NCBI GenBank assembly: GCA_034401135.1
Contig: JAWZSP010000007.1
Location: forward strand, 496,001 to 560,000
Source: Volutella citrinella
Taxonomy: Eukaryota > Ascomycota > Sordariomycetes > Hypocreales > Nectriaceae
Direction: 5' to 3'
Length of the DNA: 64,000 nucleotides
The position numbers and the translations under genes are program-made. Position 1 is the first letter of the stretch, and the number at the start of each line of letters is the position of its first letter. Below the pieces are notes generated by a model that was given only the letters and a program-made list of their open reading frames with translations, did no database searches and was not told the origin of the DNA. Below, one piece after another: positions 30,100 to 62,607 of the stretch.

Positions 30100-32168
30100 G
30101 GTAATTCAGGGGTGAAGCTGGGAGGCTTGCGTCCTTGTGAGTGTGTATAGAGCTCTCACGGCCGATTGTCGGTGTCGGTGCGGAAGAAGGAGAAGCAAAT
30201 GGCTAGATCCCCAGCAGACCAAGGCGGGGTTATGGACCTCGTCCGAGTTGTTTTCTTCAGGATATCGGGAGTGAACACGGCGGGGAACAGGCGAGAAGAG
30301 AGACAACTTCTCGTGTGTTGTGAGCTGCGCGAGATCGGCGGGCTGTGCGCCTTGCGGTTGGTCGGCTGTGTTGGAGCACGCGCGTGGAAAGATTTCGCGG
30401 GGCACCTCGATCAAGCAGGTGATTGCGGGACGTCTCTGCACGGCAACGACTCAGAAACGGCGATTGGCCAGCAATGTGCACGGGAAACGCAAAAGCTGCG
30501 GCCGTATCGTGAGACGGATTAGCCAGGAAGGCAGTCAAAGTGCCGCGGCGGGTGGGAGGAAAGGGGGCGGTGGTCGCGGGAGCAGAGGAGGATGGGGAAT
30601 GCCAGAGGTTGGAGGGGGGGAAGTTTGTGTTGATGGTCCTTGGATGGTGTTGTTGACTGGTTTTTGGCGGCAGCGGGCAGTTGGAAGTGGCAGGCGGGGG
30701 AGAAGGCGCTAAGCGACGGCGGGGACAGGGGATTGCCGGCCAGTTGCAGCGAGGAAAGTAAACAAGCCCCAGGGCAGAAAAAAATAACAATGAATGAGAG
30801 AATGGGCTTCGGGGTGGGATGGGATGGCGGGGCACACGCACTCACCCGACTCCCGCCCCACCACGATGCGCTGAACCGAACGCCCCCCCAACGGTCGCTG
30901 TGGCAGGCGGGCAGGAGTCACAGACTCCAAGGAGCCCACTGAAGATCCACGGAATCCCCACTGGCGGCACTCTCGGCCACTGAGGGCCGGCACCCGCAGC
31001 TGCCCATTGCAGGCATTTCCAGGGCCTTGCAGGGCGCTTGGCTCCAGCTCGCTCCAGGGTGGAGGCGCCGTTGCGCTCACAATTGGACGCAGGCCCGCGC
31101 TGCTGCCGACTAGACATGCGCTCCACTGCGCGGGCAGACGTGGTGGAGATTGCATCATGATGGAATGCTCCTTATCGCCGCAGCAGGAGAATGGAGACGC
31201 TTGTCCGCATGACTGACCGACCTGATGGCCCGTGTGAGCCCGAGAACACCACGGCTCCCAACATTGACGCGTGAATCTGGGATATCGAGCTTGAGGCGCG
31301 GCGGCCGCCGGTGTTTATGAATCATATAGAGTCGCCTCGTCAGTGTGGAATCTGAGACGGGGCTTGAGCGCCACAATGCATGGCCGTTGTGATTCACGTC
31401 ATAATGATAAATCAACATGCCGTCAGAGCCAAAGTTTGTTGATTCAGTCAAATGTCAAGGGTCTTATGGGTTCCTGTTTTCTCTCAGGTGGTACATGTCC
31501 GACGCTGCCCTACCCTAAGGCATGCAATGTTTCATCCCCGCACACTCTTCTTGGTTATGAATATGATAGCTGATTCTAGTAAAATATTGACAATTAACAA
31601 TAGAAGCTTAATGAGAAGTGATTTATTATCAATGGTGATAGTTGTCTCAAATATTATAATATCTGTTTAAAACACTGCCCAGCTCTGTACATGCGTATAT
31701 TGACCGGTACAGCTCTTGTGGCTTGCGGCGCTCTATTGTAAGTTGGGAAATTCTACATAGCCGCGCGGGTCAATTCTATTTTCGGCTTTACCACGAGATC
31801 GGCTAGGCTACATATCCCGAAAGGCATGCTGAACTACCCGGTCGGCTTACTGGGAAAGATCCTCGCTGGCTTGCGCTACATGGTCGTCCAAGAGAATGCC
31901 GGCATAGAGACGTAGACCCTGTTCCTTCAGGAGACGGACAGTGCAGTCTCACCAATGGAAGAAGCACGTCTGGGGTCTTGGGAAGGTGATGGTGTTTTCT
32001 GAGAATACAATACTACATCAGAAAGTCGATAAAGCCTCCGGTGTAGGGCCATAGTGTCATGTGATGCTCGGTCTTAGGGTTTGATAATATCCATCTTCAT
32101 ATGTCTGTAGTTGCTAGATACCAAGGCAGCTGAGATGCTGCTCATATTCGCCTGCCCTGTTGACTTGC
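30100..32168. other. Intergenic 2 kb, CKS1 leader and permease 3' flank
   Basis: No gene supported. On the minus strand the region just above CKS1 is C/T-rich with a CTATACAC box near 30150, like a leader. The segment 31560-31680 is strongly AT-rich. ORFs at 30257-30845 are Pro/Ser-rich chance frames of the leader. Confidence 0.45.
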
Positions 32169-34000
32169 TTAGGCCTTCTCCTCGCCGACGTTCCTCCGTA
32201 GCCCAACCAATTGGGCCATTTCAGTCCAAAAACCGACTGGTGGAGTGGTAAGGGAGTTCTCATAGTCGTCAATCATTGGCCTCTCCCACACGAGATCAAT
32301 GCCCTTGGCGGGAACCATCCGTGTCTTCTTGAAAACCTTCCAGAAGACAAACAAGACGGGCATAACGAGCTGCACCGTGTAGTTGGTGAAGAAGGACTCG
32401 ACGCTCCATGGCTTGAACGAACCGTAGCCATAGGTTATCACAATAACCGCCTGGGCGACAAGTGAGATCCAGCAGCCGTACGGTTGGAAGCGGCCGTAGT
32501 AGGGTCGAGTTGTTCGATCGACGCCTTGGACCTTGCATGCCTCATAATAACGAAGGAACGTGATTGACATAGTGATGTAGTTGATTAGGCCACTGCCTGT
32601 GACGAGGCTAGTGAGCCAGTTCAAAACCTTGGTCGAGTTGCTGCTAACGTTGAGGAACGCCAGTAGACTAAAGAGCATAACGACGCAGAAGGCGTAGATG
32701 GGCACTCCGTGCTTGTTGGTCCGGGAGAAGATCTTTGGGGCTTTTCCATCGATGGATAGACCATAGAGAACCCTAGACGCGCAGTATGTGTAGGTGTTAC
32801 CAGCCGAGAAGATGGACGTAAGAATCAGGGCGTTGACAATATGCGGGAGCACACCAACGTTAAGGTTGGTCATGGCGATGACATAGGGCGAGCCAGCTGC
32901 CGAGCCGCTGCCGCTTCCGCTTCCGAACCAGACGTCAACTAGCTTGGGGTCGTTGTATGCTACAACGATGGAAACACACAAGGCACCGAAGACGAAGAAG
33001 AAACAAAAGCGGTAATAGACCGTCTTGAATGCCGATGCGAGGTATTTGCTCGGGTGTTTGGCTTCGGCCGCAATTGCCGAGATGTACTCGGGGCCGACGA
33101 TGGTGAAGGCGGCACTCCAGAGAGCAGCCAAGAAACCTTCAAACCGTCCGAGGTCGCCGGTTGTGCGGAATTGCGCAAAAGGCCCTGGGTCAGACCAATA
33201 ACGGAAGCCGTACGCATCGTGCAAAGGGTTGCCACCGCACATTGTAATAAGGGTAAAGAAGAAAAGGATGAAGATCAGGATGACCTTGCCGCTAGAGAGC
33301 CAGAACTCGGTTTCGCCATATATACGCACCGCAAGAATGTTCAGCAGACTGTGAGAAGTAATAATTAGTTACGATGCAGCACATCAGAGATGGGTTAAGC
33401 GTCAAGCCGTAGAGGAGTAACAGAGAGAATCAGATAAGGCCATTTGGGAGATATGTTAAGGGGCTCATACCCGTAGCAGACAATAATGGCGGCGCATATC
33501 CCGGCAGTTGTGCCAGGCTCAGCGACAGCCGGATTCCAAAAGGTGAGAACAAACACAATGGCCGTGATCTCAAAGGGGACGATTAGAACCTCAAGGAAGA
33601 AAAAGTTCCAACCCGCCATAAATCCTAGTGCATCATCGACCCAGTAGCCAGCGAGACGGACGAATCCACCGGCGACTGGCATGTGAGTTGTCATTTCGGC
33701 AATCGAGTTGTTGACAAGGGCGAGGATGCAAGAATAAAAGGCGTAGGCAATGACTATGCTGGCAGGACCTCCTCTGGCCAAACCAGCTCCAATGCTGATG
33801 AAGAGAGCCGTGCCGATACTTCCGCCAGTTGCAATGAGCTGGATCTGTCGGTTTCCAAGACGGCGGTGAAGTCCGTTCCCCGTTCCGGCAGCTACTTCAC
33901 CAGACGCGGTCGACCCATTCTCGTCCACGACTTCGCCGAGCTTGGTGGATTCAACTCGCTCCATCTTGGCCATGTCGGGCTTTGTTGACATAGGTTCCAT
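32169..34000 (-). CDS. Amino-acid permease (APC superfamily, YAT type)
   Basis: Two exons, 34000-33471 and 33348-32169, give 569 residues; the intron (122 nt, GTATGA ... CACAG) joins CYG-LLNILAVRIYGE. The N-terminal cytosolic tail is followed by HRRLGNRQIQLIATGGSIGT, the APC/YAT signature leading into TM1. About twelve hydrophobic segments follow, with the conserved AALWSAAFTIVGPEYISAIA and SRVLYGLSIDGKAP loops and a charged C-terminus. Members import amino acids with protons across the plasma membrane; the substrate cannot be read from sequence. It starts 961 nt from the divergent reductase gene and sits at the edge of a metabolic cluster, suggesting import of that cluster's substrate (inference). 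A short Gly/Ser run (GSGSGSGSAAGS) in a loop is unusual. Confidence 0.92.
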
Positions 34001-34960
34001 ACGGAGTGACAGGGTAATGTATGAAGGAGAGACAGGGGGTGTTCAAGGAAATGCTCTGCTTGTGTGTTTCCGCCACCAACCGTGTTAGGCAGAGACGTGG
34101 ACCAAATTGCCCAGAAATGGTGAAGGCCGGTTCAATGATGCAAGATCTTTCGCGCTCTATATAGGGGAGGCTTCCACGACACAACCATGTTAGGTTCGAG
34201 ATAAGACTGGCTCTTGTACGGACGCCCAGAACTGGTGCTTAGCGCAGCCCTGCCAGCTACCCCCGGACCATGGCCTGCGAAGAATCCGGGGGGAACGGTG
34301 CGCGGTGAGATAACGCGGGGTCGGTGTGCTGTAATCGAGGTAAGCCGATTCGAGGACTCGGGCCTTGGCAGGGTCATGGGCCGAAGGCAATCCAATGACC
34401 AGCGTCCATGATATCAAGATTCCAGCCGGTCGCCTGATGGCAGTAAATGGGGGTGCGCTAAGGCCAGTGGCGTGTCCGAGACGAGAGCGCGAAACCGAAT
34501 CCTGATAGGGATTTTTGTCAACTTAGATGGTCGCCAGGGGTGCGACAGGCTCAGAAAACCCAAAGTTGACAACACGAGCGAGCACGCTCCTTGAGAGGGG
34601 GCCTTGATTTGAAGAGGGCATTGGGGAACGAGAACAGTCGAGGCCAATCGGTACATTCAGGTCTTGCGGCTTATCAACATGCATTGATCCATCTCCCCAA
34701 TCCACAAATCCAAATCCATGCGTGCAATCAAAAACAGACCTCTTGATTCTTGAGTTCCGAATTCCCGGCATGCGGTTCTTGGTCGTTTTGAGTGGAGCTC
34801 AACTTTGAATTGTACCATGTAGTGCTGTGCAAGCAGAAGCCAAAACCGATTGGACCATTAGGCGAACTGTGGGGTCATCTGGTCTGGCCCCCACTTGGCG
34901 CAGGTTCCCTTGTCGCCTTAAACAGACATTCGAGTATGGAGGATTGAAGAACAACTCAAG
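34001..34960. promoter_or_regulatory. Bidirectional promoter of permease and reductase
   Basis: There are four GATA-factor motifs (HGATAR, either strand): 34199-34204, 34308-34313, 34503-34508 and 34671-34676. In fungi these are bound by AreA/NIT2-type nitrogen regulators. About three are expected by chance in this length, so weight comes only from the similar pattern at the other cluster promoters. Confidence 0.35.
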
Positions 34961-36107
34961 ATGGACTCATCATCCGGCAGCTTGCAGGGCTCAATATCGG
35001 AGTCTCCTTTCTCGACAACTGGTGAAATGGCAAAGTGCAAGGTCCTGCTCGTCGGCACTGGAGCCATCGGCACTGTCTGTGCCTATGCCCTCGAAAATGG
35101 AGGCCTAGCTGAAGTCACGGCTGTCATGCGTTCAAGCTATGGCCGAGTGATGGAGCGAGGCATCGACATCGATTCGGTCGATTACGGCCGCATAAAGTCT
35201 TGGAAGCCGACCGCAAGTAAGCATTCCGCCATCTCTTGCCAATTCACCAAGCTGATTTCGTCCTGCAGTTGCCAAGAGCGTGCAGGAGGCCTCGGTTGAG
35301 AGCTCGAGGCCATTTGATTTTGTTCTGGTCGCGACCAAAGACATTCCGGATGTTGCCCCAGCCATGGCGGATGTCATAGCCCCTGTAGTCACGCCTGGGA
35401 AGACCGTCATTGTCCTAGCTCAGAACGGCATCAACATTGAGAAGCCCTATATCAACTACTTTCCTGCAAATGCTCTAGTCAGCAGCGTCATTTTTACCGG
35501 TGCATCCATACGCAAAGATGGAACAGTCGTGCACTCGGACCCCGACATTCAGAAGATTGGCCCATTCTCAAGTCCTGACGTGCCCGATACAGTAGCAGAG
35601 GATGCTGCAAGGAGTTTCATCTCGCTTTACAATCCGCACGGCAAGCTGGAAATCACGTTTGAGGCAGATGTTGCGGCGATTCGCTGGCGAAAGCTTGCCT
35701 ACAACGCCTCATTCAACGCCGTCGCTACCGCACTGCAGATGGATACTTCGCGCTTGCGAATGTGTCAGTTCATTTCCGATAACTTGTTAATTCCTATTAT
35801 TCTAGAGATACAAGCTATAGCTGCAGCGAAAGGCATCGCTCTGCAAAGAGACCTAGTGCATGCCGTCATGACGCAAGACGAACCCCACGGCTTTTTCAAG
35901 CCCAGCATGCTGCAAGACTACGAGAAAGGAAACTTGATGGAAGTCGAGAACATTGTTGGAGAACCACTTCGGGAAGGCTTGGCCCTTAACATTCCTGTGC
36001 CAACGCTTCGGATTGTTTATAATCTTGTTAACGGTTTACAGACCAAAGTCAAGGAAAAGCAGGGACTATGGAAGCCAGTTTATACCTCTGATAGCTTGTA
36101 TAAATAG
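34961..36107 (+). CDS. 2-dehydropantoate 2-reductase-like (ApbA/PanE) oxidoreductase
   Basis: Two exons, 34961-35216 and 35269-36107 (52-nt intron), give 364 residues; starting at the second ATG (35027) would give 342. The Rossmann motif GTGAIGTVCAYALENGG opens the NADPH domain. The catalytic Lys and Asn lie in WRKLAYNASFNAV and the Glu region in NLMEVENIVGEPL. PanE reduces ketopantoate to pantoate for CoA synthesis, but fungi carry many paralogues in secondary or catabolic clusters that act on other 2-keto acids. The setting here, next to a permease and regulator, points to such a paralogue. An 83-nt piece of this gene, spanning the intron end, recurs at 44598-44680. Confidence 0.88.
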
Positions 36108-36685
36108 TTAGCTTGAATTGGTTTTAATTTTTCACAATGTATATAAGAAAGTTTATGAATTATATATGAATTTACTGTCAATACGTTTTGACATAGCGGA
36201 TGCAGGTCTGGGCTTGATTCGCCCCATCTCGCCGTCGCCCCCCTGCTATCAGGGAAGTGGAGATGGCAGGCATCATGATAAAGAACTTGCCTGACCAACT
36301 AACCTATCTCTGTGGATCGCAATCTAGCATTCGTATCTGGCTGCCAGACTTGGACAGTAGATAAGAGAGGTCAGGCCCCCACCAAAAGCCTTGACATTGG
36401 CCTAGAGATCCGATGCTGAAACAGCAAACGGTACCGAAAACAGCTGTAGATTGGTGTCATATGTGGAATTTCAGGCCATCTCTGTCCATGGCATACCGAG
36501 GATCCCGAAAAATCTCCTTATCTGAAAGAGCCTGGACGCCAGTAGTTCCCAGCATCATCCAGCTGTTCACCTCACGTCACTTCATTACTTTGTCTCCAAT
36601 GTCGACCCGCATTGGCGAAGAATATTGGTGTCCATACACTTGGGATCGGAATTCCATTTGCTAGGAAGAACATTGCTACATGCTG
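36108..36685. other. Intergenic between convergent reductase and regulator
   Basis: AT-rich 3' flank just after the reductase stop; no gene seen. The ORF at 36413-36664 has no family resemblance. Confidence 0.5.
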
Positions 36686-39022
36686 CTAACTAAGCATCAA
36701 CCGCACACCAGTTCTCTCCACGACATCTCGCCAGTGGCATCCCCCTGATCGTCTGGAAGGCCCAGTTGCCCATACCTCGTCCAGAATAGCAAACCCCGAC
36801 CTAATAGACACGATTCCATAGAACTGGACTTGGAAATACCACTGCCGATATCTGTCCTGGAGCTGAGCATCAAAGGTTTCGCTTGCTGCGATAAATGCAG
36901 GCCAGTATAACGGTGCACTCTGCACTTCTGCTCCGACCTTGAGCTTCTCGATGGCTTCCATGCTCTCCAGCACAGACTGGACGTAAGGCTGCAGGAATCT
37001 GTGTCCGACATGTCGGATGTTTTGTGCAAAGTATATGATCAGCGCGTTGTAAAATGCCAAGATATGATATTGCACAATCTTGACGTTGACTGGCGCGTCG
37101 GTATCCGGGCTGGGTTTGAGGTTCACCACCGAAGGCCAATCCATGATGACCTTTTCCAGCTGATCACATTCGTCCATTAGGCCTCCTGAAACTTCCTTGG
37201 TCGGCTTCTTGGCTCTTTCCTCATCCACCTTGTCCATCAAGTCAATAACTTGGGTTAGGAGAATGAGCAGACCATGGGGGATCCCATAGATTCTCTCGCA
37301 GCTGGTAATGCGAGTGTCAAAGTCCAGATTGATGCCTGTTCCATAAGCAGCCATTTGTTCATCTAGGAGATGGCGGCAGAAGATGTCGACCGAAGGCGGC
37401 GATGCTTCACCGTCCCCACTTGTGTATCGCGATATCTGTCTTTTGTCGCGCTCCTCTCGAGGGGCGGTGCTCTCGTAGATGGTTCTCAAGTAGAAGTAGA
37501 TTCTGTGGAGAGCTTGAGCCTTGAGCGAGTATCGTTTCTTCCATCTCCGAGCTTGTGTAATTAGGCGGAAGCATCCATCCAAGTGGACGCCACAGGTATC
37601 AGTGTCCCCAGACATGACCTGCAATAAGTCAGCCTCACTAGGCGGCTCTAGAAACACTTCGACTTACATTTATTGTCACCATGGACAGCATTGTGGCCAA
37701 ATACTCCTTGTACTTCAGTGGACGCCTGGAAAAGAAGTCGCTTTCCACTGCATTCCTGAGTAGCTCAATCGCCTTGGTGCGATACGAGACACCCGCTGAT
37801 CGCCAATTCTCGGCTTCGTCAGTGTGCTGCTGCCATTGGTGGTCAGTCGCGATGAGAAATGAGCTGATGGCTAGCGTGGTGGTTACGAGAGCCTCGCGGA
37901 TCTTGGTAGTCGATCCTCGAACAGCGAATTCGCCGGTAGCTTGCAGGGCCTTGGGTAGATGGACTGTTTTCCACGGGCTCTTTTCGTGGTCGATGATGCA
38001 AAAGATGAAGATGATTCGTTGTGAGTATTGGTGAAGAAGGAAAGACTGGTCGGACGAGCGGTTTGATGGCGCTGGACAGGAAACAAGAGAGGTGCAAGAC
38101 GCTGGAGAAGTATCTCCATCATCTGCCTGGTCATCTCCGAGTTCTGTGACAGGGTTGTCGAAAATGGGCCCGAGCGACTGATCTGGGTTTACTGGAGCCC
38201 CAATTGCCGCAGATGCTAGTTCATCAAATGTTGATGGTTCCAGGACGATGGGCGCATCAAGTTGAAGCCAAGGGGGTGTCTCCCACACAGTATCAGTGGG
38301 ACAAAGAGGCAGACCAATGGGATTTGGCCGGCGCGATTCTGTAATGTCTAGAGTACTGTCCGCTCCCAGCTGCAGGTCTGAGGGAATATCCCAAGTAGAT
38401 TCTGGGGGCATCTCCCAAGCATCTTCAGGCAGCGGCGGTGGTGGTGTAGTGTCTGGAGTCTGTCTGGGGGATTGAGCAATAGATGCAGGGCTATCGAGGT
38501 CCGTCTGGTCGGGAGTCGAGCCAGGTATCGCTTCTGAGGCTGTAGATTGCTTCTGACTCAGAGGCCCAAACGGCCCAAAGACACCGAAGCCTTCGACAAC
38601 ATGGCAAACATCTTTCCCAGAAGATACTGCCTTGGTCGAGCCCAGTGAATCCACAGCACTCAGGATCTTGTCTAAGCGGCCAGGGGAGAAGACGAGGGTT
38701 GTGGCGACTTCAGTGTCTGTCAGAACGGCCCAGAAAAGGTGGTGTGTTTTGCGGCCTTACCTGGTGTGATACTGCTACGAGGGGCCCAAATGGAGGGAGA
38801 AGGGTGTTCGTTTTCGTCACTGTTGACCTTGTTCCCCTCGCTGTTGACCCACTGAAGCCTTACGCCGTAGCCCTCGCATCGACTGCCTCTCCGGAGACAT
38901 TGGTTGCACTCGGGCTTGGCTTCATCGCACCTCACTCTGCGAATTCGACATGTCCAGCAGCCTGTGAAGGTTTTGGTGTGCTTTCTGAACCGCGGTGCAT
39001 CGCGGTGGGGACCAGCCTTCAT
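36686..39022 (-). CDS. Zn2Cys6 transcription factor
   Basis: Three exons, 39022-38761, 38671-37668 and 37618-36686, give 732 residues. The DNA-binding cluster is near the N-terminus (GCWTCRIRRVRCDEAKPEC followed by NQCLRRGSRC), six cysteines with standard spacing. A long acidic/Pro-rich linker (about 90-290) precedes a helical regulatory domain resembling the fungal-specific Fungal_trans_2 type (ARCA/ACR-2-like; family call from memory). Introns are 89 nt (GTAAGG) and 49 nt (GTAAGT). The start is the first in-frame ATG ahead of the zinc cluster. It lies in the middle of the metabolic cluster, divergent from the aldolase, so it is the obvious candidate for its pathway-specific activator (inference). 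Confidence 0.9.
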
Positions 39023-39661
39023 TCCCCAAGATTCGAGGTCCTTGCTGGAGTGGAGCGTCAGGCCGTGGGGCAGATAAGGCGGATCAACCCAGCAAGTGGC
39101 CCAAGGAGAGATGCAGATGAGCGATGAGCTGTGGTTGCGGATGGTGCAGAGGTTGGCCGTGCCTTCAGTCTCAGGCAAAGGGAAGTTGGGTCCGAGAGGA
39201 ACTAGGCTGTGGTTTTATCTCAGTCTGCTGGGGTGGGGTTGGCTGGTGTTTCATTGCCTGTTCCACCTGGGGCAAGTCATGTCTTCATTGCCGGTGATCT
39301 GATTCGTGAGCCAAGGGAGCTACCAGACGCACTAAAAACGCGGCACATCCTATTCGGCACGATCCTGCAGTCACGATGCGGGGGAATCTCGCTCTAGACT
39401 TAGACTAATGATAAAGTGGGCATAGTACACGAGCCCTCGGACCAGTTCTCCCAAATCGTTTGCAGGTGGACTTGGAGATATGCTATCAACGCCATCGTCT
39501 CGTTGCATTGATGACGAGTCGCCACCCAGACGGGGCATCGCTTGCATATCAAGGCCCTGATGCCTTGATAAGGGCAGTGCTTGGTATCCGCTGGCCCTGA
39601 ATTGGTATTGTCTCTTATCAACTGCCCATTGCGAACCACCTGGCCGATCAAGATATCCGCA
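39023..39661. promoter_or_regulatory. Bidirectional promoter of regulator and aldolase
   Basis: Four HGATAR motifs (either strand) lie in 639 bases: 39072-39077, 39409-39414, 39566-39571 and 39615-39620; about two would be expected by chance. No confident Zn2Cys6 half-site pair was found. Confidence 0.4.
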
Positions 39662-40643
39662 ATGTCCAACACTGTCACTGAGACGCTCTCCCTTCGTGCC
39701 CCTGCGGCAGAAAAGCAGCCTGCGCAGGCTGCGACAGAGCAAAAAGATCAGCCATTTGCCACTGGCGGATACTCTTTCCCCGGCCTTCCGAAGTTCGACG
39801 ACCCTTACAAGTCGCGACAATGGCAGCTGGAGCACATGGCTGCCGCATTCAGAGTCTTTGCGCGCAAGGGCTTCACAGAAGGCACTGCTGGGCATATCAG
39901 TCTCCGTGACCCTGTGCAGCCAGACACTTTCTGGATCAACCCGTAAGTCACCCTACTGAGTCCCATATATAGTGCTGAGATGATATAGATTTGGAGTCCA
40001 CTTCGGTATGCTAAAGGCGAGCGATATGGTCCACGTCAACGAAGACGGCCAGGTCATTGGCGGAAATCGCGTTGCCGTCAATGCGGCCGGATTCCAGATC
40101 CACGGCGCCATCCACAAGGCCCGCCCCGATATCAACGCAGCCTGCCACACGCACTCGCCAGCAGGTAAGGCCTGGTCAACGTTCGGACGCCCTGTAGACG
40201 TCATCAGCCAGGATACGTGCACCTTTCTAGGCATCCAGTCTGTGTACAAGAACTTTGGTGGCATCGTTCTAGAAGGCGAAGAGGGGGAAAGGATCGCCGA
40301 AGCATTGGGTGAGAAGAATCGAGTTGCAATCTTGCAGAACCACGGTATTCTCACAGCCGGATCGACCGTGGATGAGGCCGCCTACCTCTTCACACTCCTG
40401 GAGCGAACCTGCGAGATCCAGCTTTTGGTGGAGGGCACCGGACTAGATAAGAACATTGTTGGTGACAAGGAGGCGGAATATACTGCCAAAGTGTACCAAG
40501 ACCCAGTGAGTCTAGCTTCATGCCTTGCGCATGGGCCTAACGCTAACCATGAGATTCACTAGGAAACACTTTACATCGAGTTTCAGCCGGATTTCAACTA
40601 CGAGGTCTGGAAGTCGAAGGGAGAGCTGAGCAGCGGCTTGTAG
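39662..40643 (+). CDS. Class II aldolase/adducin-family protein
   Basis: Three exons, 39662-39942, 39989-40505 and 40563-40643, give 292 residues; introns are 46 and 57 nt. The fold signature includes GFTEGTAGHISLRDP, the metal-binding ACHTHSPAGKAW and LQNHGILTAG. Bacterial relatives (fuculose-1-phosphate aldolase, ribulose-5-phosphate epimerase) use these histidines to hold zinc and split or epimerise sugar-phosphate-like substrates. Fungal members are mostly uncharacterised and may be decarboxylases or aldolases acting on small hydroxy-keto acids. The ATG at 39662 is the first one after the last upstream stop that leads into the conserved body. It is divergent from the Zn2Cys6 gene and convergent with the amine oxidase. 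Confidence 0.9.
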
Positions 40644-41148
40644 CCAGAATATGAAGGCGTTCTAGGAAGCCAGAGAATGAGAAAGAACTTCATGATAGAA
40701 TATTATTTGAATATCAGTTGGTTGAAGCACATGTGGAAGATAGAGGTAAACGCAGGTGGAATGACCTCATAACAGATTTTCGCCTAGCCATATGAAAGAA
40801 GCGATGAATACACGCCAACCATACTGATCAAGTCACACTGCAGTGTTGGCCTTATAAAGTTATAGATAAGGATAGAGTGTTCCGGGTGGGCACATTGCCT
40901 ATCTACGTCTTCGAGAGTTGTATTAAGGATAACACCACAGCGGGTAGGTTGCAAACGACTGCATTCTACGTCATGAATCAAAGATGGCCGGGTTGAGAGC
41001 TATGATACGTCGAATTGGGTCGCATCAAGATGTTATCTTCAGGTAGTAATAACGCCCGCCAGCTTTCTAACTAACAGATGCATGTTAACTGTACGTCTAC
41101 TTGGATTCAAGAAAGCAAGTACATCAAATTATTTCTTCTCGATAAGCA
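40644..41148. other. Intergenic between convergent aldolase and amine oxidase
   Basis: The 3' flanks of both genes; no gene seen. Confidence 0.5.
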
Positions 41149-42637
41149 TCACAGGCGAGACCTGGGGCCGCCCAGAGCCTCCACCACCTCCTCAGCCCCC
41201 TGTGCTCCAGAAGTCAAGGCTCCCTCCATGTACCCCTTCCAATGGTGAGAGTACTCCGTTCCAACAAAGTGGATGTTGCCCAAGGGCTTGCCGTGCACAT
41301 CCATGTGCTTCACGTAGTGCCCTAGGGCAGGGATCGGCGACAGAGCCCCTTGGCTGTACGGCTCGTGCTTCCAGATCTGGTCAAAGAACTCGATCGGGCG
41401 CCACAGCTCAGAGTCACGGCCAACTGCATACAACTTAGCAAGCTGCTCCAGGATGAGCCTGCGGCGAGTGTTGACGTCCTTCTTGGCCCACTCAGCTCCA
41501 GCAGCTCCGTTGACGAAGCACGTCAGACCATAGAGGCCCTTTTCGGGGACGCTCGAGTCTCGCACGATGCTAATGGGGCCAACGTAGCTAAAGGCAAAGC
41601 CGTTATAGCCCAGGTCCCGCCACCAAGGCTTGTCGTAGCAGACAAGAGCTTTGGTATAGTGCCCAAGCTTGGAGTTGCTGGAGCGCTCCACGAGAGCAGC
41701 GGGCAGAGGAGGGTTGAAGTGCATGTCCTTGAAGAGAGCACTCGGGACCGAGATGATCGCTTTGCGGCCGACAAACTTCTTGCCAGTGGTTGTAGTGATA
41801 ATAACCCGGTTCTTATCATCGTCGATGGATAGTACAGGCTCGGAGAGATGGATGTATTGGCGTCCGACAAGATTGGCGATTCCTTCCGCAATGGCAAGGG
41901 TGCCTACAGTATAGTTGTTAGAAGCTGATTCGATTGTCTGACTATTGGTACTGCTCACCGGTTTCCAGGCGTAGATAATTACCACCCGTGTGATCATCTG
42001 CTCGAGCAGCCAGCAGACCGTGGTTTCGGCGGCAGTAGTCGATAAAGTGAGCAGCCGACTCCTCAGTCGACTCAAGGCCGTGCATGGCTCGCACCCACAA
42101 GTTCACCATCTTGCAGGTCCTCTCGTTGGCCCCCAGCTTTCGTACATATGTATCGAGGGATACCTGATCGTCCTCGTACTTCGGGGCTTCCTTCTTGTGA
42201 GACTCAGCTTCGATGTGATCGCGAATCATCTCCAGGTTCTTCTTATCAGCCGTCGCAAACTACGCAGTCGTGTTAATAAGAAGGCGAGTCAATCCATAGA
42301 CGGAAGCGGGCGTGCGTACGTCGGGAATGACTCCAAAGGGGAACTCGAGGCGCTCGTTCTCAGAGACCTCGACAATGGCAGTCTTGTCGATGGGCTGCTT
42401 GACTGTGCGCATGCCAAACTGACGAACATAGTCCGTCACGCGAGGCTGCATCTCATCGTTGATCCAGGCAGCGCCCAAGTCGGCAGTGCCACGGCCAGAT
42501 GCCAGTGGCACACTCCAGACCTTGCCGCCGACACGGTCTCTCGCTTCGACGACGACGAAGGAGAGTCCAGCCTGCTTGGCGGAATGAGCAGCCTGCAGGC
42601 CACTCATTCCCGCACCGATAATGACAACGTCGAACAT
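41149..42637 (-). CDS. Flavin-containing amine oxidase
   Basis: Three exons, 42637-42320, 42259-41959 and 41903-41149, give 457 residues; introns are 60 and 55 nt. The N-terminal FAD motif is FDVVIIGAGMSGLQAAHSAK with VVVEARDRVGGKVWS, then DLGAAWIND. The C-terminal flavin region is HFVGTEYSHHWKGYMEGAL. This is the monoamine/polyamine oxidase family: amine plus oxygen and water give an aldehyde (or imine), ammonia and peroxide. There is no signal peptide, and the ending SRL* is a peroxisomal PTS1 tripeptide, a good fit for an H2O2-producing oxidase (inference). Substrate is unknown. It shares a 783-nt promoter with the next gene. Confidence 0.92.
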
Positions 42638-43420
42638 GGTGGAGTGATTGGGTATGACGAAGAAGATTGGAGAGTGAAGAATGCGGCTGCCCAAGCGTTC
42701 GACACTCAGCGCAACTCAACTTCTATGTGCTTTTCATTTCGTCTTCTTCCCCGCGGCCATGACTGACGATGGATGGATTCGGTGATGTCGCTTTACACAT
42801 CGGTTCTACCCCCATGCCAGATGGACGCCTTCGCGTTGTCGTCCGAGAGGTATCTCCCCACAGAAATCTGAACGAGGCAAACAGGTCCGAGGCCAGCATG
42901 TGGGCCTCTGTAGCATTTCGCTGCTAGTTGACGCTAAGGAACCGAGGCGTCGTCATGTGCTTCAACTTATCAGCCCTCCTTGATAGCAATTCCCCGCAGT
43001 CCTGGGATAGTGATACCCCTCAGCGCGGGCTGGCCAGATAGCTTGGATGAAATCGGTGCCCGTTATCTTCGCCGGTTCGGCTACCAGACCCTCGGACCCA
43101 ATTTCCATTGTAGATTCATATCAGAATTGGAATCACGAAACGAAGACGGCTGCACGCTCCTCAATCGAGACAACTTACAGACGAGGTCTGGATTGAGTTG
43201 TATCAGGAGTGCCTTGATGACGCCGTGAACTTGAACTTGTCAATCATTTCGATAAGAGATTCATCACATGACCGTGGCGCCCAGCACAGAGCATCCAGCA
43301 TCTGTTCAGCTATAACTATCATAAGCGCTTCATACCATCGCTATTCGATCTGATAAGCTCCCCAGCATCGAAAGCATAAGCATCAACTTCTCTTCAAGCA
43401 CAGCCATCCAACCAGCAACA
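42638..43420. promoter_or_regulatory. Bidirectional promoter dense in GATA motifs
   Basis: Seven HGATAR motifs (either strand) lie in 390 bases: 42967-42972, 42981-42986, 43036-43041, 43063-43068, 43250-43255, 43316-43321 and 43351-43356. About one would be expected by chance. This points to an AreA/NIT2-type factor driving the amine oxidase and oxygenase under nitrogen limitation. Confidence 0.55.
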
Positions 43421-44529
43421 ATGCCTTCGGTTGTCATCGCCGCCCCTATTGTCGAGGGACCCAAGCTGCAAAAGGCCCAACGGCCGACTGCGCCCTTTCC
43501 CCAGTACATTCTCGATGCCGCCCGCCAAACAAAGCGGGTGCCCTTCGACCCGAAGGAGCATCTCGCCTACGTTCCCCCTGAGAATATCGTCAAGATGAAG
43601 GATATTGGCCTCGAGGGCCAGGGAGTCTCTCCCCACGCTGTCACCGACCCGTTCCCGCTCCTTTCTCAAGAGGCCATGCTCCAGATGAGGGCGGAGCTGT
43701 TCAGCGAGTGGGCAGTTGAGAACTGCCGCTTCTCTTCAGACCTAATCGCAAACATCGTGCGAGGCATGACACCAGAGTAGGCATGCCCCAAGACTTGTGT
43801 AAAAGACTTGAGACAGTTGACAGAAAGACAGGCGCGCTCCGTTCTCATTTGCCCTCTGGCATTCCCCAGAGGTCTTGAAGATCATCTCCGATGCTGCTGG
43901 CATCGAGCTCGTCCCATCCTTTGACTACGAGGTTGCCAACATCAACGTCTCGATAAACGATCAGAACGTTTCCTCGGTAGAAGGCGACCAGACCTCCTCT
44001 GTTGGTTGGCATTACGATAGCGTGCCTTTTGTCTGCGTCGTAATGGCGTCTGACTGCATGGGCATGGTTGGTGGAGAGACGGCGATCCAGCTACCTAGTG
44101 GCGAGGTTAGAAAGGTCCGAGGACCTAGCATGGTACGTAAATGACAAGTATATGGGTCGAGTGGCTGCTAATATATCACAGGGCACTGCCGTGGTCATGC
44201 AAGGCAGGTATATCCGCCATCAGGCCCTGAAAGCATTTGGCGGCCGCGAACGCATTGCCATGGTCACCTCTTTCCGGCCCAAGAACCCTCTCGTGCGCGA
44301 TGAGACTACACTTGCTGGTCTGCGTGCTATTAGCGATGTGAATCTGCTGTATTCCCAGTTCAACGAGTACCGGATGGAAATTGTTGAGGAGCGGTTCCGG
44401 GCCAAGCGCATCGAGGAAAGAGAGCGTGTCCGGAGGCAGGCGAAATTCGACGTTCCTGGTATGAGGGAGTGGCTTCTGGAGCAGCGAGATTTTATCAACT
44501 CTACTCTGGAGCAACTCGTTGAACTTTAG
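43421..44529 (+). CDS. Fe(II)/2-oxoglutarate oxygenase-like protein
   Basis: Three exons, 43421-43776, 43832-44132 and 44182-44529, give 334 residues. The first acceptor is at 43831, not at the later CAG near 43869. Only this choice restores the family stretch APFSFALWHSPEVLKIISD. A double-stranded beta-helix is suggested by VGWHYDSVPFVCVVMASDC (HxD metal pair), GGETAIQLPSGEV and GTAVVMQGRYIRHQAL, whose His would be the distal iron ligand. The helical C-terminus is rich in Arg and Glu. I recognise the fungal family only as putative 2OG-Fe(II) dioxygenases of unknown substrate. Divergent pairing with the amine oxidase suggests both act on the same compound. Confidence 0.8.
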
Positions 44530-44597
44530 CTGAATGTCTCAGCTTATACACCCAGCGAGCTTGTGTATGTTAGTAGGGGCACGTAGCGCTGGTGGTC

Positions 44598-44680
44598 TTT
44601 CGTCCTGCAGTCGCCAAGAGCGTACAGCATGCCTCGGTTGAGAGCTCGAGGCCATTTGATTTTGTTCTGGTCGCGACCAA
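44598..44680 (+). repeat. Copy of 83 nt of the PanE-like gene (intron end plus exon 2 start)
   Basis: Aligns without gaps to 35256-35338 with 79 of 83 bases identical, same orientation. The copied part begins 13 nt before the intron 3' end, so it arose from genomic DNA, not mRNA. No open reading frame continues from it: it is a dead fragment. Confidence 0.95.
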
Positions 44681-44958
44681 CGCGCTTTCGGGAGGCGAAA
44701 CTAGCTGACATGCATCTTGGAGGTCGAGTTTCCAATCCATCAGAATGTGTACTGGTCGTCGTTCAGGAGTTCGTAGGGGTGCGCGCTTAATAAAGTGACC
44801 TATACTGTTGAGGTCCTGGTCTAAAACAGTACGCAACTTCCTCGCTTACTGTTTATTATAGTAGTTTTGGGCTTACTTAAAATCATGACTTAATTTAGGT
44901 CTTGAGCACTCGTATTATTTCTATCCTAAACGAGCAGTCCTAATACCTATTAATAGAG

Positions 44959-45215
44959 TGTTAAATGTTGATTCTAATAGGGGCTTGAACATTATGAAAG
45001 AGTGAGACGGGATCCCGTGTTCTCTAGTAGGTATGGTCGTATGTACATAGACCGCCCAGGGATAAGAACTATAAAAGCAGACATTTTGGATGTCCCAAGT
45101 CTGCTTGCCCTGGTGGGGATCAGCTACCCTGAAGCTAGACGAAAATAATATCATTATCATCATCGCTCTCCGCTATCATCATCTCTGGTGTGATAGTAAA
45201 TACATGACTACAACA
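44959..45215. mobile_element. Possible solo LTR (about 257 nt)
   Basis: Begins TGTTAAATG and ends ACTACAACA, giving TGTT/AACA inverted ends as in Copia-type LTRs. A promoter-like ACTATAAAAGCAG is inside, near 45070. The length fits an LTR. The flanking 5-mers (TAGAG and TGACT) do not match as a target duplication, and no internal retrotransposon sequence is present, so this stays tentative. Confidence 0.3.
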
Positions 45216-45492
45216 TGACTAGCGTTGGATGTTGCCCGCCTTACCACCCACTCACCGTCCCGCATGCCCTCTTCCTGCATGCCCCACTCTGCATAATCCA
45301 TTAATAAACACAACCTAACTCACTTCAACCCAAGCCAATGACGTATCAAGAGATAAACGAAACCTAACAACAAAATACCTCTGGCGCGTTCGGCTTTTTT
45401 TGCTTCTCAGATATTTCACACTGCACCATCAGGCCCCAAGCCAGAGGCCACGCCACGCATCTCGACGCCAGAAACCACCCAGTTCGCCCCCG

Positions 45493-46476
45493 ATGGCTTC
45501 ATCCACAGCAGACACCGCCATGAAGGCGCTCCGGCTGGAGCGGGACCAGCCTGGGAATACCCCGACTCTGACTCTCGCCACCGTGCCACGACCTCAGCTC
45601 ATCCCCGACCACGTCGTGGTCAAGGTGCGGGCCTCTGCAATCCACCCCAGCGACATCGGCAATGCTCGCGGCCAGTTCCCCTACACCCAGTACCCGAGAA
45701 TTGTCGGACGCGACTACGCCGGCGTCATCGTCGAGGGCCGCCCCGAGCTGATTGGCATGGAGGTCTTTGGCACCAGTGGCGACACGTATGCATTCACCGT
45801 GGACGGCTTCCAGGCCGAGTACACGCTTGTCCACGAGAAGGACATTGCCCAGAAGCCCAGGAACCTCACTTTTGCCCAAGCGGCAACTCTGGGTGTTCCA
45901 TTCACCACCGCCGCTCTGGCCATCGAGAGGGTGGACATCAAGGCGTCTGATGTCGTCTTGGTCATTGGCGCCGGTGGTGCCGTCGGTTCGGCTGCTGTGC
46001 AGCTCGCCAAGCGCACAGGTGCCAAGGTTCTCACGGCCTCCCGAAGTTCTGCTGATGATATCAACACCGTGGAGGACCCGGAGATGAAGGAACTGAGTGC
46101 ACTTACCAATGGCAAGGGCGTTGACGTAGTTATTGACGCTGTTGGCGTCCCTGCACTGGTCACTGCTGCCATCTCCAACCTTGGGCAGTGCGGCCGCCTC
46201 AGTTACATCTCGGCACCCAAGGCTGGCACCCCGCAGCTTTCCTTTGACATGCGACTATTTTATCGCAACAATTTGAGCCTTCAAGGTGTCAACTCTCTGT
46301 CGTTTTCCGCCGAGTATATGGGCAAGAAACTGGCGGGAATGCGCGAGTCCTTTGAGTCGGGGGAGCTTTCGCCTCTTGGAAAGTGGACTGAAGTTAACCT
46401 TCGCGACGTTGTCGAGGTCTACCGCACGATTTTCGAAGCAAAGGACTCCAAGAAGTATGTAGTGGTTGTGGAGTGA
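45493..46476 (+). CDS. Zinc-independent medium-chain dehydrogenase/reductase (quinone-reductase type)
   Basis: A single exon of 327 residues from the ATG at 45493 (MASSTADTAMKALRLERDQP). The frame is open a further 31 codons upstream but has no ATG there. The GroES-like N-domain (VVVKVRASAIHPSDIGNARG, PRIVGRDYAGVIVEGRP) and the cofactor motif VIGAGGAVGSAAVQLAKRTG are clear. The cysteine/histidine zinc ligands of alcohol dehydrogenases are missing, as in NADPH quinone or enoyl reductases. The reaction is probably NAD(P)H reduction of an alpha,beta-unsaturated carbonyl. It may be the last gene of the cluster, or simply a neighbour: it lies beyond the repeat and AT-rich segment and has its own promoter. 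Confidence 0.9.
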   Translation: MASSTADTAMKALRLERDQPGNTPTLTLATVPRPQLIPDHVVVKVRASAIHPSDIGNARGQFPYTQYPRIVGRDYAGVIVEGRPELIGMEVFGTSGDTYAFTVDGFQAEYTLVHEKDIAQKPRNLTFAQAATLGVPFTTAALAIERVDIKASDVVLVIGAGGAVGSAAVQLAKRTGAKVLTASRSSADDINTVEDPEMKELSALTNGKGVDVVIDAVGVPALVTAAISNLGQCGRLSYISAPKAGTPQLSFDMRLFYRNNLSLQGVNSLSFSAEYMGKKLAGMRESFESGELSPLGKWTEVNLRDVVEVYRTIFEAKDSKKYVVVVE

Positions 46477-46526
46477 AAATTGAGGAACAAATCGAACATC
46501 CCGAGACGCCAAGTCTTGTTATCTGT

Positions 46527-47571
46527 TTACATGAGCAGCTGCAGTCTGGCATCACCCAGCCAATATTCCTTTATTGTATAGCTGAGCGGTGTCCTGCCAA
46601 GATCATCCTGGCTGTTGACATCGATATCCTCCCGCTGAAGCAAGCTGGACGCTGCTGTATCCCGCCAACCCTCAGCTGCATAAGATAGCGGTGTTCTGCC
46701 CAATTCATCTCGTTTGTCAACTCTTTGAAGTAATAACAATATCAGTCCGATAGAGTTTTCCATAATTGCCCAAGTCAGTGCTGATCTGCCTCCTTTGTCG
46801 GTGGTATTGAGGATTATGTCAGGGCGTTTCAGAAGAGCTTCTACCACAGTGGGATGTTTTGTGAAGAATCTTGACTTCATGCCATTGATGAGGGGTGTTC
46901 TGCCTCGTGCATCGCGGCAATTTACATCCTTACTTCCATGCCCAATCAGAATTTCCAGAGAGGCCGATAATTCAGAATGTTCGCTCCAAAATACCGTGGC
47001 ATGCAATAGTAGTGTCTCTCCTTCTCCGTTTTTCCTGTTGATGTCTATTCGTGGAAGGCTTTGCAGAAATTTGGCGACTTCTGTCTGGTGCCATCCAACG
47101 TAGTGAAGCAAAGTGTTCCCAAAACGATCTTCGGCATTGGGATCAACATTGGAAATCGCTAATAGAGCCTTGATATGACCGATTTTGCAGGCAGATGCCG
47201 TTCATCTGGACCATGAGCTATAGTTTGAACAAGGGCTTGTGATAGCCATGGCTCCGTTGTATCAATCAATCTCAAGAGTATTTCGTCATCTCAACCGACG
47301 AGCTCCTGACAGCATGGAATAGCGTTTCGTTGAAACTGATAAGGGATAATGTTGACATCTGCCTCGCCTGTGATTCTCGGGCGGTAAGTGTCTTTCTGTC
47401 TTTTGCTTTATGAGATTGTGCAGCTGTGGAACTGTAATAATCGGTAGCTGCTTCACGGAAGTGTTGAATGGTTGGATCGCCAAGGAGAATCTTGACGTTA
47501 TCGATGGGTCTATACCCCCACTGCCAACATTGGATCAGGCACTTTGGCCAAGGCTCTGATACTGCTGTCAA
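46527..47571 (-). pseudogene. Decayed ankyrin-repeat gene
   Basis: On the minus strand 46527-47201 encodes several ankyrin repeats (GRTPLSYAAEGW, GRTPLINGMKSRF, GNTLLHYVGW, ACKIGHIKALLAI). The frame is closed upstream by a TGA at 47202-47204. A further piece at 47272-47571 in another frame contains SFNETLFHAVRSSSVEM, again ankyrin-like. I found no intron that joins them. The repeats are typical of the sensor end of fungal NACHT/ankyrin (NLR-like) or other large ankyrin proteins, but no NACHT part remains here. It probably represents the 3' remnant of a large gene. Confidence 0.6.
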
Positions 47572-47704
47572 CCTAGGGATGCCTCGTTACTTGAGGAACT
47601 ATCCCTGTTTCTATATGCTGTTTCAGATCTCACCAACCCGTATTTGATAATGCCCATGGCATTCGGGGACTTGCTCGGCCCAAGCTGGATGGTAAGGAGT
47701 TTGG

Positions 47705-48181
47705 ATGAAAGTGCCTCTAGCCGAGGTTGTCAAGCTTCGGTATCGCTACGGCATTGGCGAAGCATACGCTACCCTGCTTTCCTGGCGACCATTTGGGAGT
47801 ACCACACGAGAACTCATCGAACTCGATCTTTGGGACGACCTGGATTCACCTCCTCAGAGACGATATGGGCATTGGATCTGGTGGGTCAAAAGAAAACAGG
47901 GGACCACGAAAACCACGCGAGACATACAACGTGGCTTTAAGATTGACACCGGTCGGTCTTCCAGGGACCTACGAGACCGACTGAAGTTGATCGATTCCGG
48001 CTCGAATGATGGGCTTGAAAACATGAATCCAGCGGATATCAATCTCGCGCCCTCAGTGGCATCAACATGGAAAATGATCTGCTATTGCATGCGAGATATA
48101 TTTGGGGAATCCGACTTGGATGTGTTGGTGTTTCCTGGAGCTAGAGATCATGTTTGGCTTGAACGAATGCGATGGTGCTAG
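47705..48181 (+). CDS. Orphan ORF of unknown function, possibly a gene fragment
   Basis: An open frame of 158 codons with a non-repetitive, Trp-rich composition (RRYGHWIWWVKRKQG, STWKMICYCMRDIFGE). I do not recognise it and see no splice signals linking it to neighbours. Its position between a decayed ankyrin gene and a HET gene makes a degraded accessory gene likely. Confidence 0.3.
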   Translation: MKVPLAEVVKLRYRYGIGEAYATLLSWRPFGSTTRELIELDLWDDLDSPPQRRYGHWIWWVKRKQGTTKTTRDIQRGFKIDTGRSSRDLRDRLKLIDSGSNDGLENMNPADINLAPSVASTWKMICYCMRDIFGESDLDVLVFPGARDHVWLERMRWC

Positions 48182-48644
48182 CGGATCAGCCAAGGTTAGG
48201 CTCGTCTTAACATTCTCTCGTGCTTTAGCAATCCGCAGCCTACAACATCTAGATTGATCAACCCATTGCTGTTTTGTATCCTTCTTTCACAAATAAGCTA
48301 TAAGTGAGATGGAAATAGCAATGAGAGCAAAGAAACCGTCGGACGAGATGCAACCCTATTCGGCATTTGAAATTCCAAAAACCACCTCCTCCGGCAGTCA
48401 TGTTCCTACGCATATTGAACAATCTGACACCCAGTATCCACCTCTTTCCGTTCGTATTCACCATGCAGCTTGGAGCTGCCCCTCAGCCTTAAGGCAACCC
48501 TAGGGTCGCAAGCTGGCTGCCAGTGGCTACCTGTCAGCCGAATGACCCACTTGACTGCTTGTAGCTCGTGGAGTTTGTGACCTTGGCGGGGCACGCATCC
48601 TATCAACCTAAGCTTGCTTGGGATGTCATCTAACTCTATCAATA
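48182..48644. other. Intergenic, HET gene promoter
   Basis: About 460 bases; no gene or named element seen. Confidence 0.45.
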
Positions 48645-61100: not shown

Positions 61101-62607
61101 CTGCTGATTCGGTTCCGTATAAATCATCATCTTCGTCGTCGTCATCTTCAAGGTCGAGGTCATCCACATCCAGTCCTAGCTCCTGATCGATAGCCCGTGG
61201 CTTGCGTCGCTTCTCCTGGCTCTGCTTCCTGGACCAGCCCAACACTACAGAGTCGCCAGTTTCGCTGCCAACAAAGACAGTATTCTTGCCCAGTCTGGAG
61301 ATGCACGAGGCACGACTCTTGACTAGGTGGCCACCGCTCTCCTGGGGCACAAGCCTGACCGTAATCCCCGATACTGTGCGACCGTCGATTCGGAATGACA
61401 CTGTCGCGAGAAGTCCGTTGTTTAGAATCAACAGCAGCTCTCCAGTTTCGATTTGTAGTTGTTCGACATTGCAATTTTCCAGGCGCAGATTCAGGTCGGA
61501 TTGGTCGGTCAAACTGAAGGATGTCATCTGACGAGCCATTGGGTTGACAGCCACGCCGTTAGCTTTGCCAGACTGGTCAACATGGATCAGCTCGTTCTGT
61601 CCCACTAGAAGCGCGCCGCCGACGGGGGCGGGGAGGGCGACAACTCGGGTTAGGTCGCGGGGCAGGTCGGTGACGGAGAGAATGGTCGTCGAAGCTCGTT
61701 GCTGAAGGTCTAGGGTGAAGACCTTGTAGGTGAGGTGGTCCTTCTGGCCCAGCGAGTGCGCCGAGGGCTGGCTCGAAGACAGGATGCCGAACGTCGGTTC
61801 TCTATACTCATGCAAGAAGGCGAGGTGCACTGGGTGAAGCAGACTGGGGTCTAGGAGGGGCAGACGGAGGACAAAAGATGGTGTATACGCTGCTTCTAGC
61901 TTGTCGCTATCTCCATTGGCGACTGCAGTAGCCTCCTTGACCGGACGCGGCCCATCGAGATCCTCATCCCAATCGTCCATCTCCAGATCCTCTTCCGGCT
62001 GCTGGAAGGGGAGAATGGCCAGGTTTCGGGAGCCAAACTTGAAGGCGGCACATCGGCTGCCGGGGTCCGCCTCGACGTAGTTGACGTATTCGCCGAAAGG
62101 GACCTCCCAGGGAGCACCCTGGAGCTCATCTTTCTCGTAGTAGTGGATCGATATCGTCTCGAGGAGGTTCTTCTTTGGGTCCCACTCCGCGAGGCAGAGC
62201 TTGGCTGCCTTGTACGCTAGGAGGAGGGCCTCGCCACCGGATTTTGAGTTTTTGATCTTGATCCTGGCCAGGCCGGTCACGGTTCCAGCAAGGGGTAGCT
62301 CAGACACGAGCACCAGCTTGGTGTTTGTCGTTTTGTCGGTGCGCACGAGCATCGACTCCCCTCCACCGAGGAAGGAGGACTCGAGGCCGTCATCGTCGTT
62401 GGCTCGGACGTCGAATACTGGTTCGGACTTGGCAGCGTTCGCGACGGGGTTCTGGTCGTCTAATTCGGAGGAAATGGTCTTTGTAGTGAAGATTTGGAGC
62501 AGCGACCCTTTGGCGACGACCAAGTTGTTGGCCGTGGCCGATGTGAGCGGGAGACTTAGGGAGTGTGTGACGGCTGAGGGAGCCGCGAGCTCGGTGTAGG
62601 CCTGCAT
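58189..62607 (-). CDS. CFT1: Cleavage and polyadenylation factor subunit CFT1 (CPSF160)
   Basis: Three exons, 62607-60528, 60473-58722 and 58670-58189, give 1437 residues, the usual length. The start MQAYTELAAPSAVTHSLSLP and NNLVVAKGSLLQIFTTKT are family-typical; the in-frame ATG at 62820 would add 71 atypical residues. Beta-propeller sequence runs throughout, with an acidic loop (DLDLEDDDDEDDDLYG), VRSYDGDLGLTQILPMLDEE across the first splice and the CPSF_A-type C-terminal domain (KGVWFAGYTEEPYTFKVLG). The last exon ends near AELREELEGILGWSGL. CFT1 is the scaffold of the 3'-end processing complex in the nucleus, helping to recognise the polyadenylation signal. Introns are 54 and 51 nt. Long antisense frames inside it are codon-bias shadows. 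Confidence 0.96.

Follow-up and report, generated by a model that had tools for sequence, protein, structure and literature searches.

A putative amino-acid catabolic gene cluster of Volutella citrinella with linked amine oxidase, oxygenase and PanE genes and an aldolase-fold protein of the TqaM/NovR type

A 64-kb stretch of DNA from the fungus Volutella citrinella (C7:496001-560000 of a 45.1-Mb genome, hereafter the window) carries seven neighbouring genes for an amino-acid permease, a PanE-like 2-keto-acid reductase, a Zn2Cys6 transcription factor, a class II aldolase-fold protein, a flavin amine oxidase (AO), an Fe(II)/2-oxoglutarate oxygenase (2OG) and a medium-chain dehydrogenase/reductase (MDR). 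We found that three of these genes, 2OG, AO and PanE, are linked in other fungi beyond chance, and that the same genome holds a sister cluster with paralogs of the regulator, aldolase, PanE and AO genes. With about equal confidence and doubt, we read the seven genes as a regulated fungal cluster that would degrade an imported amino acid or amino-acid-like amine.

In the proposed route, the permease would import the amino acid or amine, and the 2OG protein, which has the BesD/HalB fold, would hydroxylate the free amino acid, or could instead act after deamination. The AO would deaminate the compound to an imine, whose hydrolysis would give a 2-keto acid or an aldehyde. The PanE-type reductase would reduce the 2-keto acid to a 2-hydroxy acid, and the aldolase-fold protein, as a three-His iron enzyme using O2, would release the carboxyl group as CO2 and leave an acid one carbon shorter. 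The Zn2Cys6 protein would regulate the cluster, and its genes would be expressed together. The PanE-type reductase appears to be the natural partner of such a decarboxylase, because it makes 2-hydroxy acids from 2-keto acids. More tentatively, and with rather more doubt than confidence, we propose that the genes represent an undescribed fungal route of deamination, reduction and oxidative decarboxylation, in which PanE and a TqaM/NovR-type iron decarboxylase would replace a thiamine or coenzyme A enzyme in shortening the substrate by one carbon; it would be built on the AO/2OG pair for free amino acids, with a RidA-fused version in the sister cluster and a bacterial parallel. Each family by itself is known, and the newer part is the proposed reduce-then-decarboxylate step. 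No description of the gene set or of the AO-2OG pairing was found in the open-licence literature of PubMed Central (PMC), and a preliminary description of this locus had likewise known of no pathway with this set. Searches for the set or the pair brought up only work on pH genes and copper amine oxidase of Penicillium expansum.

Gene models and predicted enzyme functions

The spliced gene models were assembled manually from open frames and intron signals, and their splice sites are predictions. All seven are intact (in frame, with an ATG start and one terminal stop) and are arranged as three divergent pairs followed by the MDR (Table 1), with divergent intergenic regions of 960, 639 and 783 bp. 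Pfam identifies six of the seven proteins (AA_permease, ApbA/ApbA_C, Zn_clus/Fungal_trans_2, Aldolase_II, Amino_oxidase and ADH_N/ADH_zinc_N), and the 2OG protein was assigned by model, fold and motif. The seven families, their layout and their coordinates in the preliminary description were thus correct, and its import step agrees with the AA_permease assignment.

Table 1. Genes and divergent promoter regions of the cluster (positions in the window)
Feature	Position	Strand	Details
Amino-acid permease (APC superfamily)	32169-34000	-	569 aa, 1 intron 33349-33470; candidate cluster member
Divergent promoter region, permease/PanE	34001-34960		4 HGATAR sites
PanE/ApbA-family 2-keto-acid reductase	34961-36107	+	364 aa, 1 intron 35217-35268
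Zn2Cys6 transcription factor with Fungal_trans_2	36686-39022	-	744 aa, 2 introns
Divergent promoter region, transcription factor/aldolase	39023-39661		6 HGATAR sites
Class II aldolase-fold protein, TqaM/NovR type	39662-40562	+	284 aa, 1 intron 39943-39988
Flavin amine oxidase (AO), MAO-like	41149-42637	-	457 aa, introns 42260-42319, 41904-41958
Divergent promoter region, AO/2OG	42638-43420		7 HGATAR sites
Fe(II)/2-oxoglutarate oxygenase (2OG)	43421-44529	+	334 aa, introns 43777-43831, 44133-44181
MDR, quinone-oxidoreductase-like	45493-46476	+	327 aa, intronless; candidate cluster member

Sequence matches of the aldolase-fold protein in PDB are led by TqaM (9m09, 1.7e-73), followed by 9n43 (1.1e-65), 4xxf (1.2e-61) and NovR (9ryg, 1.1e-45), while L-fuculose-phosphate aldolase (FucA) matches much more weakly, at about 1e-10. 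In the alignment with E. coli FucA, which has the same fold, H147, H149 and H212 correspond to the metal-binding His residues H92, H94 and H155, but the position of Glu73, the catalytic acid/base of FucA, is Gly128 here, and that of Asn29, part of its phosphate site, is His78. The catalytic Glu is also missing from TqaM, 9n43, 4xxf and NovR in the alignment. Because TqaM and NovR are the closest relatives and the aldolase Glu is absent, the protein is likely to carry out oxidative decarboxylation of a 2-hydroxy or 2-keto acid rather than aldol cleavage. Proteins of the class II ‘aldolase/adducin’ type carry a name based on their fold, and gene context and residues suggest that this group at least consists of oxidative decarboxylases in amino-acid metabolism.

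According to excerpts of PMC11880133, TqaM forms 2-aminoisobutyrate from 3-amino-2R-hydroxy-3-methylbutanoate by decarboxylative oxidation, and the fungal tqa genes lead from L-valine to 2-aminoisobutyrate in a pathway that the 2OG oxygenase TqaL starts and that involves TqaM. Our protein shares with TqaM, its best solved relative, the class II aldolase fold, the three His, the missing aldolase Glu and the company of a 2OG oxygenase; it differs in that its neighbours here are an AO, a PanE reductase and a permease, with no HAD domain in the stretches scanned. The bacterial enzymes CloR and NovR, as excerpts of PMC13111500 describe them, convert a 2-keto acid, by way of the 2-hydroxy acid, to a shortened acid at a three-His iron site, using O2 and losing CO2. 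They share the fold and the three-His site with our protein but act on a mandelate in the biosynthesis of the antibiotics novobiocin and clorobiocin.

Sequence searches with the 2OG protein gave no Pfam or NCBIfam family and, at E<=1, no PDB chain. For the AlphaFold2 model of a 71% identical homolog (P0001, pLDDT, the predicted local distance difference test, 89.2), the best Foldseek matches among those listed are enzymes acting on free lysine or ornithine; these are best matches only, and an unlisted fold family may still match. The protein of the window carries an HxD...H...R motif (H179-Y-D181, H232 and R243), and the HxD, the second His and the 2OG-binding Arg are kept in 64, 62 and 64 of 64 aligned homologs, respectively. 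From the homolog's model, the fold matches and the motif, we assign the protein as a predicted jelly-roll Fe(II)/2OG oxygenase. It resembles BesD, HalB and HalD, together with the hydroxylase homolog 7jsd, in having the fold of free-amino-acid Fe/2OG hydroxylases and halogenases, but it lacks sequence similarity to them at the above threshold and is roughly 80-100 residues longer. In BesD-type halogenases, Gly or Ala replaces the Asp of HxD. This substitution was found neither in the 64 homologs nor in the window protein, all of which have Asp, and hydroxylation rather than halogenation is expected because this metal-binding residue is kept.

The AO matches monoamine oxidase B (MAO-B) in PDB at 1.1e-47 and MAO-N much more weakly, at 2.2e-16. 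It keeps Lys291, which we take to be the flavin-site Lys of monoamine oxidases, but lacks the Cys that binds flavin adenine dinucleotide covalently (‘YSQGALSP’ versus ‘YSGGCYTT’ in MAO-B). Its closest relative among the homologs listed is that of A. sergii, a member of Aspergillus section Flavi, with 81% identity, and every other listed protein reaches at most 74%. The PanE-like protein scores 157 bits with TIGR00745, against a cut-off of 141, and has K227, N138, S298 and E310, which we assume to be the catalytic residues of PanE/ApbA reductases. The permease has two AA_permease matches, one per exon (2.4e-73 and 6.1e-25), and scores 412 bits with NCBIfam TIGR00913, under the cut-off of 578.7. 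The regulator matches Zn_clus at 1.2e-10 and Fungal_trans_2 at 7.7e-32 and 5.8e-12, and the MDR matches ADH_N at 3.7e-10 and ADH_zinc_N at 1e-15.

Conservation in other fungi, in the same genome and in bacteria

For the linkage analysis, 120 homologs each were listed for 2OG (of 469), PanE (of 472) and AO (of 1758) at E<=0.001, the scoring of AO homologs covering only the 7997 candidates that share most words. A shared contig was inferred from the equal size of the protein-bearing contigs, and gene distance was taken from locus tags where readable. Among the matches listed, AO and 2OG share at least 29 contigs from 22 genera, with the species name agreeing in 29 of 29; 19 of these contigs are shorter than 1 Mb and five shorter than 100 kb. 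They lie at most seven genes apart in 11 of the 12 pairs whose running tags can be read, such as ACHAPT_012191/012192, FQN54_001848/001849, JN550_010089/010090 and FDECE_15457/15459, the distance in Cosmosporella assuming tags that step by ten. On the same basis, 2OG and PanE share at least four contigs: in A. caelatus (56,901 bp), in Fusarium sp. NRRL 52700 (74,805 bp, with AO too), in F. sarcochroum (102,159 bp, side by side with tags 852/853) and in Colletotrichum karsti (735,911 bp, tags 08368 for PanE and 08372 for 2OG, with AO too). In Fusarium lateritium the tags of the two genes are 013466/013468, yet the contigs listed for them differ in length (32,741 and 32,112). PanE and AO share at least three contigs, those of A. 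sergii (899,996 bp), Fusarium sp. NRRL 52700 and C. karsti, and the last two species have all three genes on one contig; in C. karsti the tags place PanE and 2OG as far apart as they are in the window.

These data show that AO and 2OG form a widely kept pair, which PanE joins in a subset including several of the closest relatives, and that the linkage of these three genes is beyond chance. The scattering in relatives that would have spoken against the preliminary description was not seen for these three, to which the comparison applies. Its idea of a cluster is supported by the conserved neighbourhood of 2OG, AO and PanE, while C-C cleavage of the aldol type is not supported, given the kinship with TqaM and NovR and the missing Glu. 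In many Pezizomycotina AO and 2OG lie on one contig, and the pair marks a common step to which we found no function assigned.

Genome-wide protein searches were run for six genes, the MDR excepted. They revealed a sister cluster at C2:401-414 kb, in which paralogs of the regulator, aldolase, PanE and AO genes all lie within 10.3 kb (C2:401431-411725). It contains the best non-self matches of PanE (C2:408438-409511; 59%, 430 bits, against 164 at the next place) and of the regulator (C2:401431-403654; 42-57% by segment), together with paralogs of the aldolase (C2:407130-408019; 67-72% per segment) and the AO (C2:410318-411725; 37-47%). The order is regulator (-), flavin mononucleotide (FMN) 2-hydroxyacid dehydrogenase (-), aldolase (+), PanE (-), RidA-AO fusion (-) and aldehyde dehydrogenase (+); beyond the last, within C2:399-419 kb as read, follow a GH43 gene and a frame that is transporter-like by eye. 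Since four families are common to two clusters of one genome, the core goes beyond chance neighbourhood.

RidA proteins form an imine-hydrolysing family. In the fusion gene (C2:410294-412232, or 7294-9232 of the stretch L071; Pfam, two adjacent frames) an N-terminal Ribonuc_L-PSP domain precedes the amine oxidase, and an imine-making and an imine-hydrolysing domain are thus united in one gene. The closest permease paralog (C3:5464485-5466186, 66-75%) lies outside the sister cluster. Class II aldolase-fold matches (13 segments) occur at seven places in the genome, one of them weak. Four more paralogs (49-69%) lie outside both clusters, at C7:1114690-1115529, C8:336205-336912, C8:2279034-2279789 and C7:2663449-2664135, and the genome-wide protein searches gave no PanE or 2OG match near any of them. 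A weak AO match (E 7.8e-4) was seen at C8:340043-340174, near a frame resembling a flavin monooxygenase by eye.

We also searched up to 6 kb on each side of 15 bacterial homologs of the aldolase-fold gene. A 2-hydroxyacid dehydrogenase stands immediately upstream in three loci (L084, by Pfam; L089 and L090, 27-29% identical to that of L084, E 4e-19 or better), and a RidA-family protein (33-38% identity, E 3e-10 or better) adjoins on the opposite strand in four (L091 and L093-L095); all seven partner genes are immediate neighbours of the aldolase-fold gene. A PanE or AO of the window type occurs in none of the 15. Pfam analysis of ten neighbours from five loci returned helicase, ClpB-like ATPase, luciferase-like, exchanger, DUF72, fatty-acid oxidation, NMT1-like and transport proteins, which, the L084 dehydrogenase aside, suggests no common pathway. 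We regard the partner genes as an independent hint for the decarboxylation of 2-hydroxy or 2-keto acids. In Pontibacillus (L084, 3146-7242) the dehydrogenase adjoins the aldolase-fold gene, and an OpuAC-type binding protein and an ABC permease follow on the same strand, an arrangement that suggests a small bacterial uptake-and-breakdown operon.

Promoter motifs and alternative explanations

The three divergent regions contain 17 sites of the nitrogen-type motif HGATAR. The count in the transcription factor/aldolase promoter is reached by two of 658 GC-matched stretches of the window and that in the AO/2OG promoter by none of 376, although these stretches are overlapping pieces of one 64 kb and the motif was picked after viewing the promoters. 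In shuffled sequences, the counts of these two promoters are reached by at most one of 500. Two 8-mers are common to the three promoters; shuffled sequences gave 0.54 on average and 3 at most. A catabolic cluster, as the preliminary description had it, agrees with HGATAR sites being commoner in two of the three promoters than elsewhere in the window, a sign of catabolism that is only suggestive.

Several observations weigh against the catabolic cluster as proposed. The permease/PanE promoter is not enriched, its HGATAR count being reached by 102 of 580 GC-matched stretches; the sister-cluster promoters show no clear excess (6 sites in 1240, 1 in 730 and 2 in 440 bp); and the three divergent promoters share neither a CGG/CCG dyad nor a 9-12-base word. 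The genome search placed no 2OG match in the sister cluster and no permease match within C2:399-419 kb, and the MDR is unmatched in the 10-kb stretch L071, the only one compared. The closest AO paralog (C7:315804-317251, 57-68%) is not part of the C2 cluster, and the 7 kb read there contain no match to PanE, aldolase or 2OG; the genome's five remaining 2OG places are all distant from AO places. Among other fungi, AO and 2OG of Penicillium manginii are 675 tags apart and unlinked, the listed AO of F. sarcochroum is on a different contig, and 10 of the 29 contigs common to AO and 2OG are longer than 1 Mb, six of them without readable tags, where co-occurrence says little. In bacteria, eight of the 15 loci show neither partner, and all four RidA loci come from actinobacterial metagenome-assembled genomes.

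Other explanations of the locus were therefore weighed. It is unlikely, in our judgement, that the cluster makes a small non-proteinogenic amino or hydroxy acid in the manner of tqa, with the permease recycling a precursor or product. TqaM, the closest solved relative of the aldolase-fold protein, does belong to a biosynthetic pathway that also starts with a 2OG oxygenase (excerpts of PMC11880133), and NovR is likewise biosynthetic (excerpts of PMC13111500). However, our 2OG protein finds no PDB match at E<=1 despite the crystal structure of TqaL reported in the same excerpts of PMC11880133 (its entry in the searched copy is unconfirmed), and no HAD domain (TqaF-like) was seen in the 18 stretches scanned with Pfam between 32169 and 47201, other frames being outside the scan. 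The window also has no open frame of the size of a polyketide synthase or nonribosomal peptide synthetase, in keeping with the preliminary description, which had noted no backbone synthase; the longest elsewhere has 781 aa and is CFT1 by eye, and terpene cyclases were not searched by profile. The aldehyde dehydrogenase and FMN 2-hydroxyacid dehydrogenase of the sister cluster fit breakdown. Catabolism is favoured because of these two enzymes, the permease, the absence of any large synthetase frame and, to a small degree, the HGATAR sites.

We think it less likely still that two adjacent modules of separate pathways meet here, namely the AO-2OG pair of many Pezizomycotina and a PanE-aldolase-transcription factor group, with the permease and MDR as bystanders. 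The far commoner linkage of AO with 2OG than of PanE with either (29 contigs against four and three among the matches listed) and the sister cluster without a 2OG match would fit this, but the three genes share a contig in C. karsti and Fusarium sp. NRRL 52700, the former with the PanE-2OG spacing of the window, and the sister cluster unites PanE, aldolase and regulator with an AO. Least probable, and quite improbable to us, is catabolism with true aldol cleavage, in which the aldolase would split a deaminated hydroxy-keto acid and PanE would reduce the keto-acid fragment. Hydroxylation and deamination would indeed yield an aldol substrate, and the fold and three metal His are kept; but the replacement of both FucA residues, the absence of the Glu from all four solved relatives and their far higher similarity led us to reject true aldolase chemistry as the leading reading.

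Base composition and flanking sequences

The G+C content is 0.49-0.55 at 32000-50000 of the window, below most of the remainder. G+C at third codon positions (GC3) is 0.56-0.69 in the cluster genes, against 0.65-0.87 in the sister-cluster frames, and most paralogs have higher values than the cluster genes. Low values are also seen in the window's GH3, HET-like and ankyrin frames (0.67, 0.60 and 0.45). Ribosomal protein L3 of this genome is closest to 7r81, 8oo0 and 7olc, structures from Neurospora and Chaetomium. Low G+C and GC3 together with the A. sergii AO are a possible sign of transfer, but horizontal transfer is not claimed, other frames of the window being low too.

Between 2OG and MDR, at 44598-44691 (+), lies a non-gene 94-bp copy, 90% identical and in the same orientation, of the start of PanE exon 2 with its 3' splice site, which the protein search also detects (C7:540601-540684, 82%). 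It appears to be the remnant of a partial duplication or of a second PanE since lost. Immediately past the cluster is an ankyrin-repeat frame of low G+C (Pfam; 46527-47201), followed by a HET-domain-like frame (by eye; 49122-50846). The region is flanked by an ERO1-like frame (24233-25861) on one side and a CFT1/CPSF-A-like frame (58702-62841) on the other, both recognised by eye and likely to be housekeeping genes.

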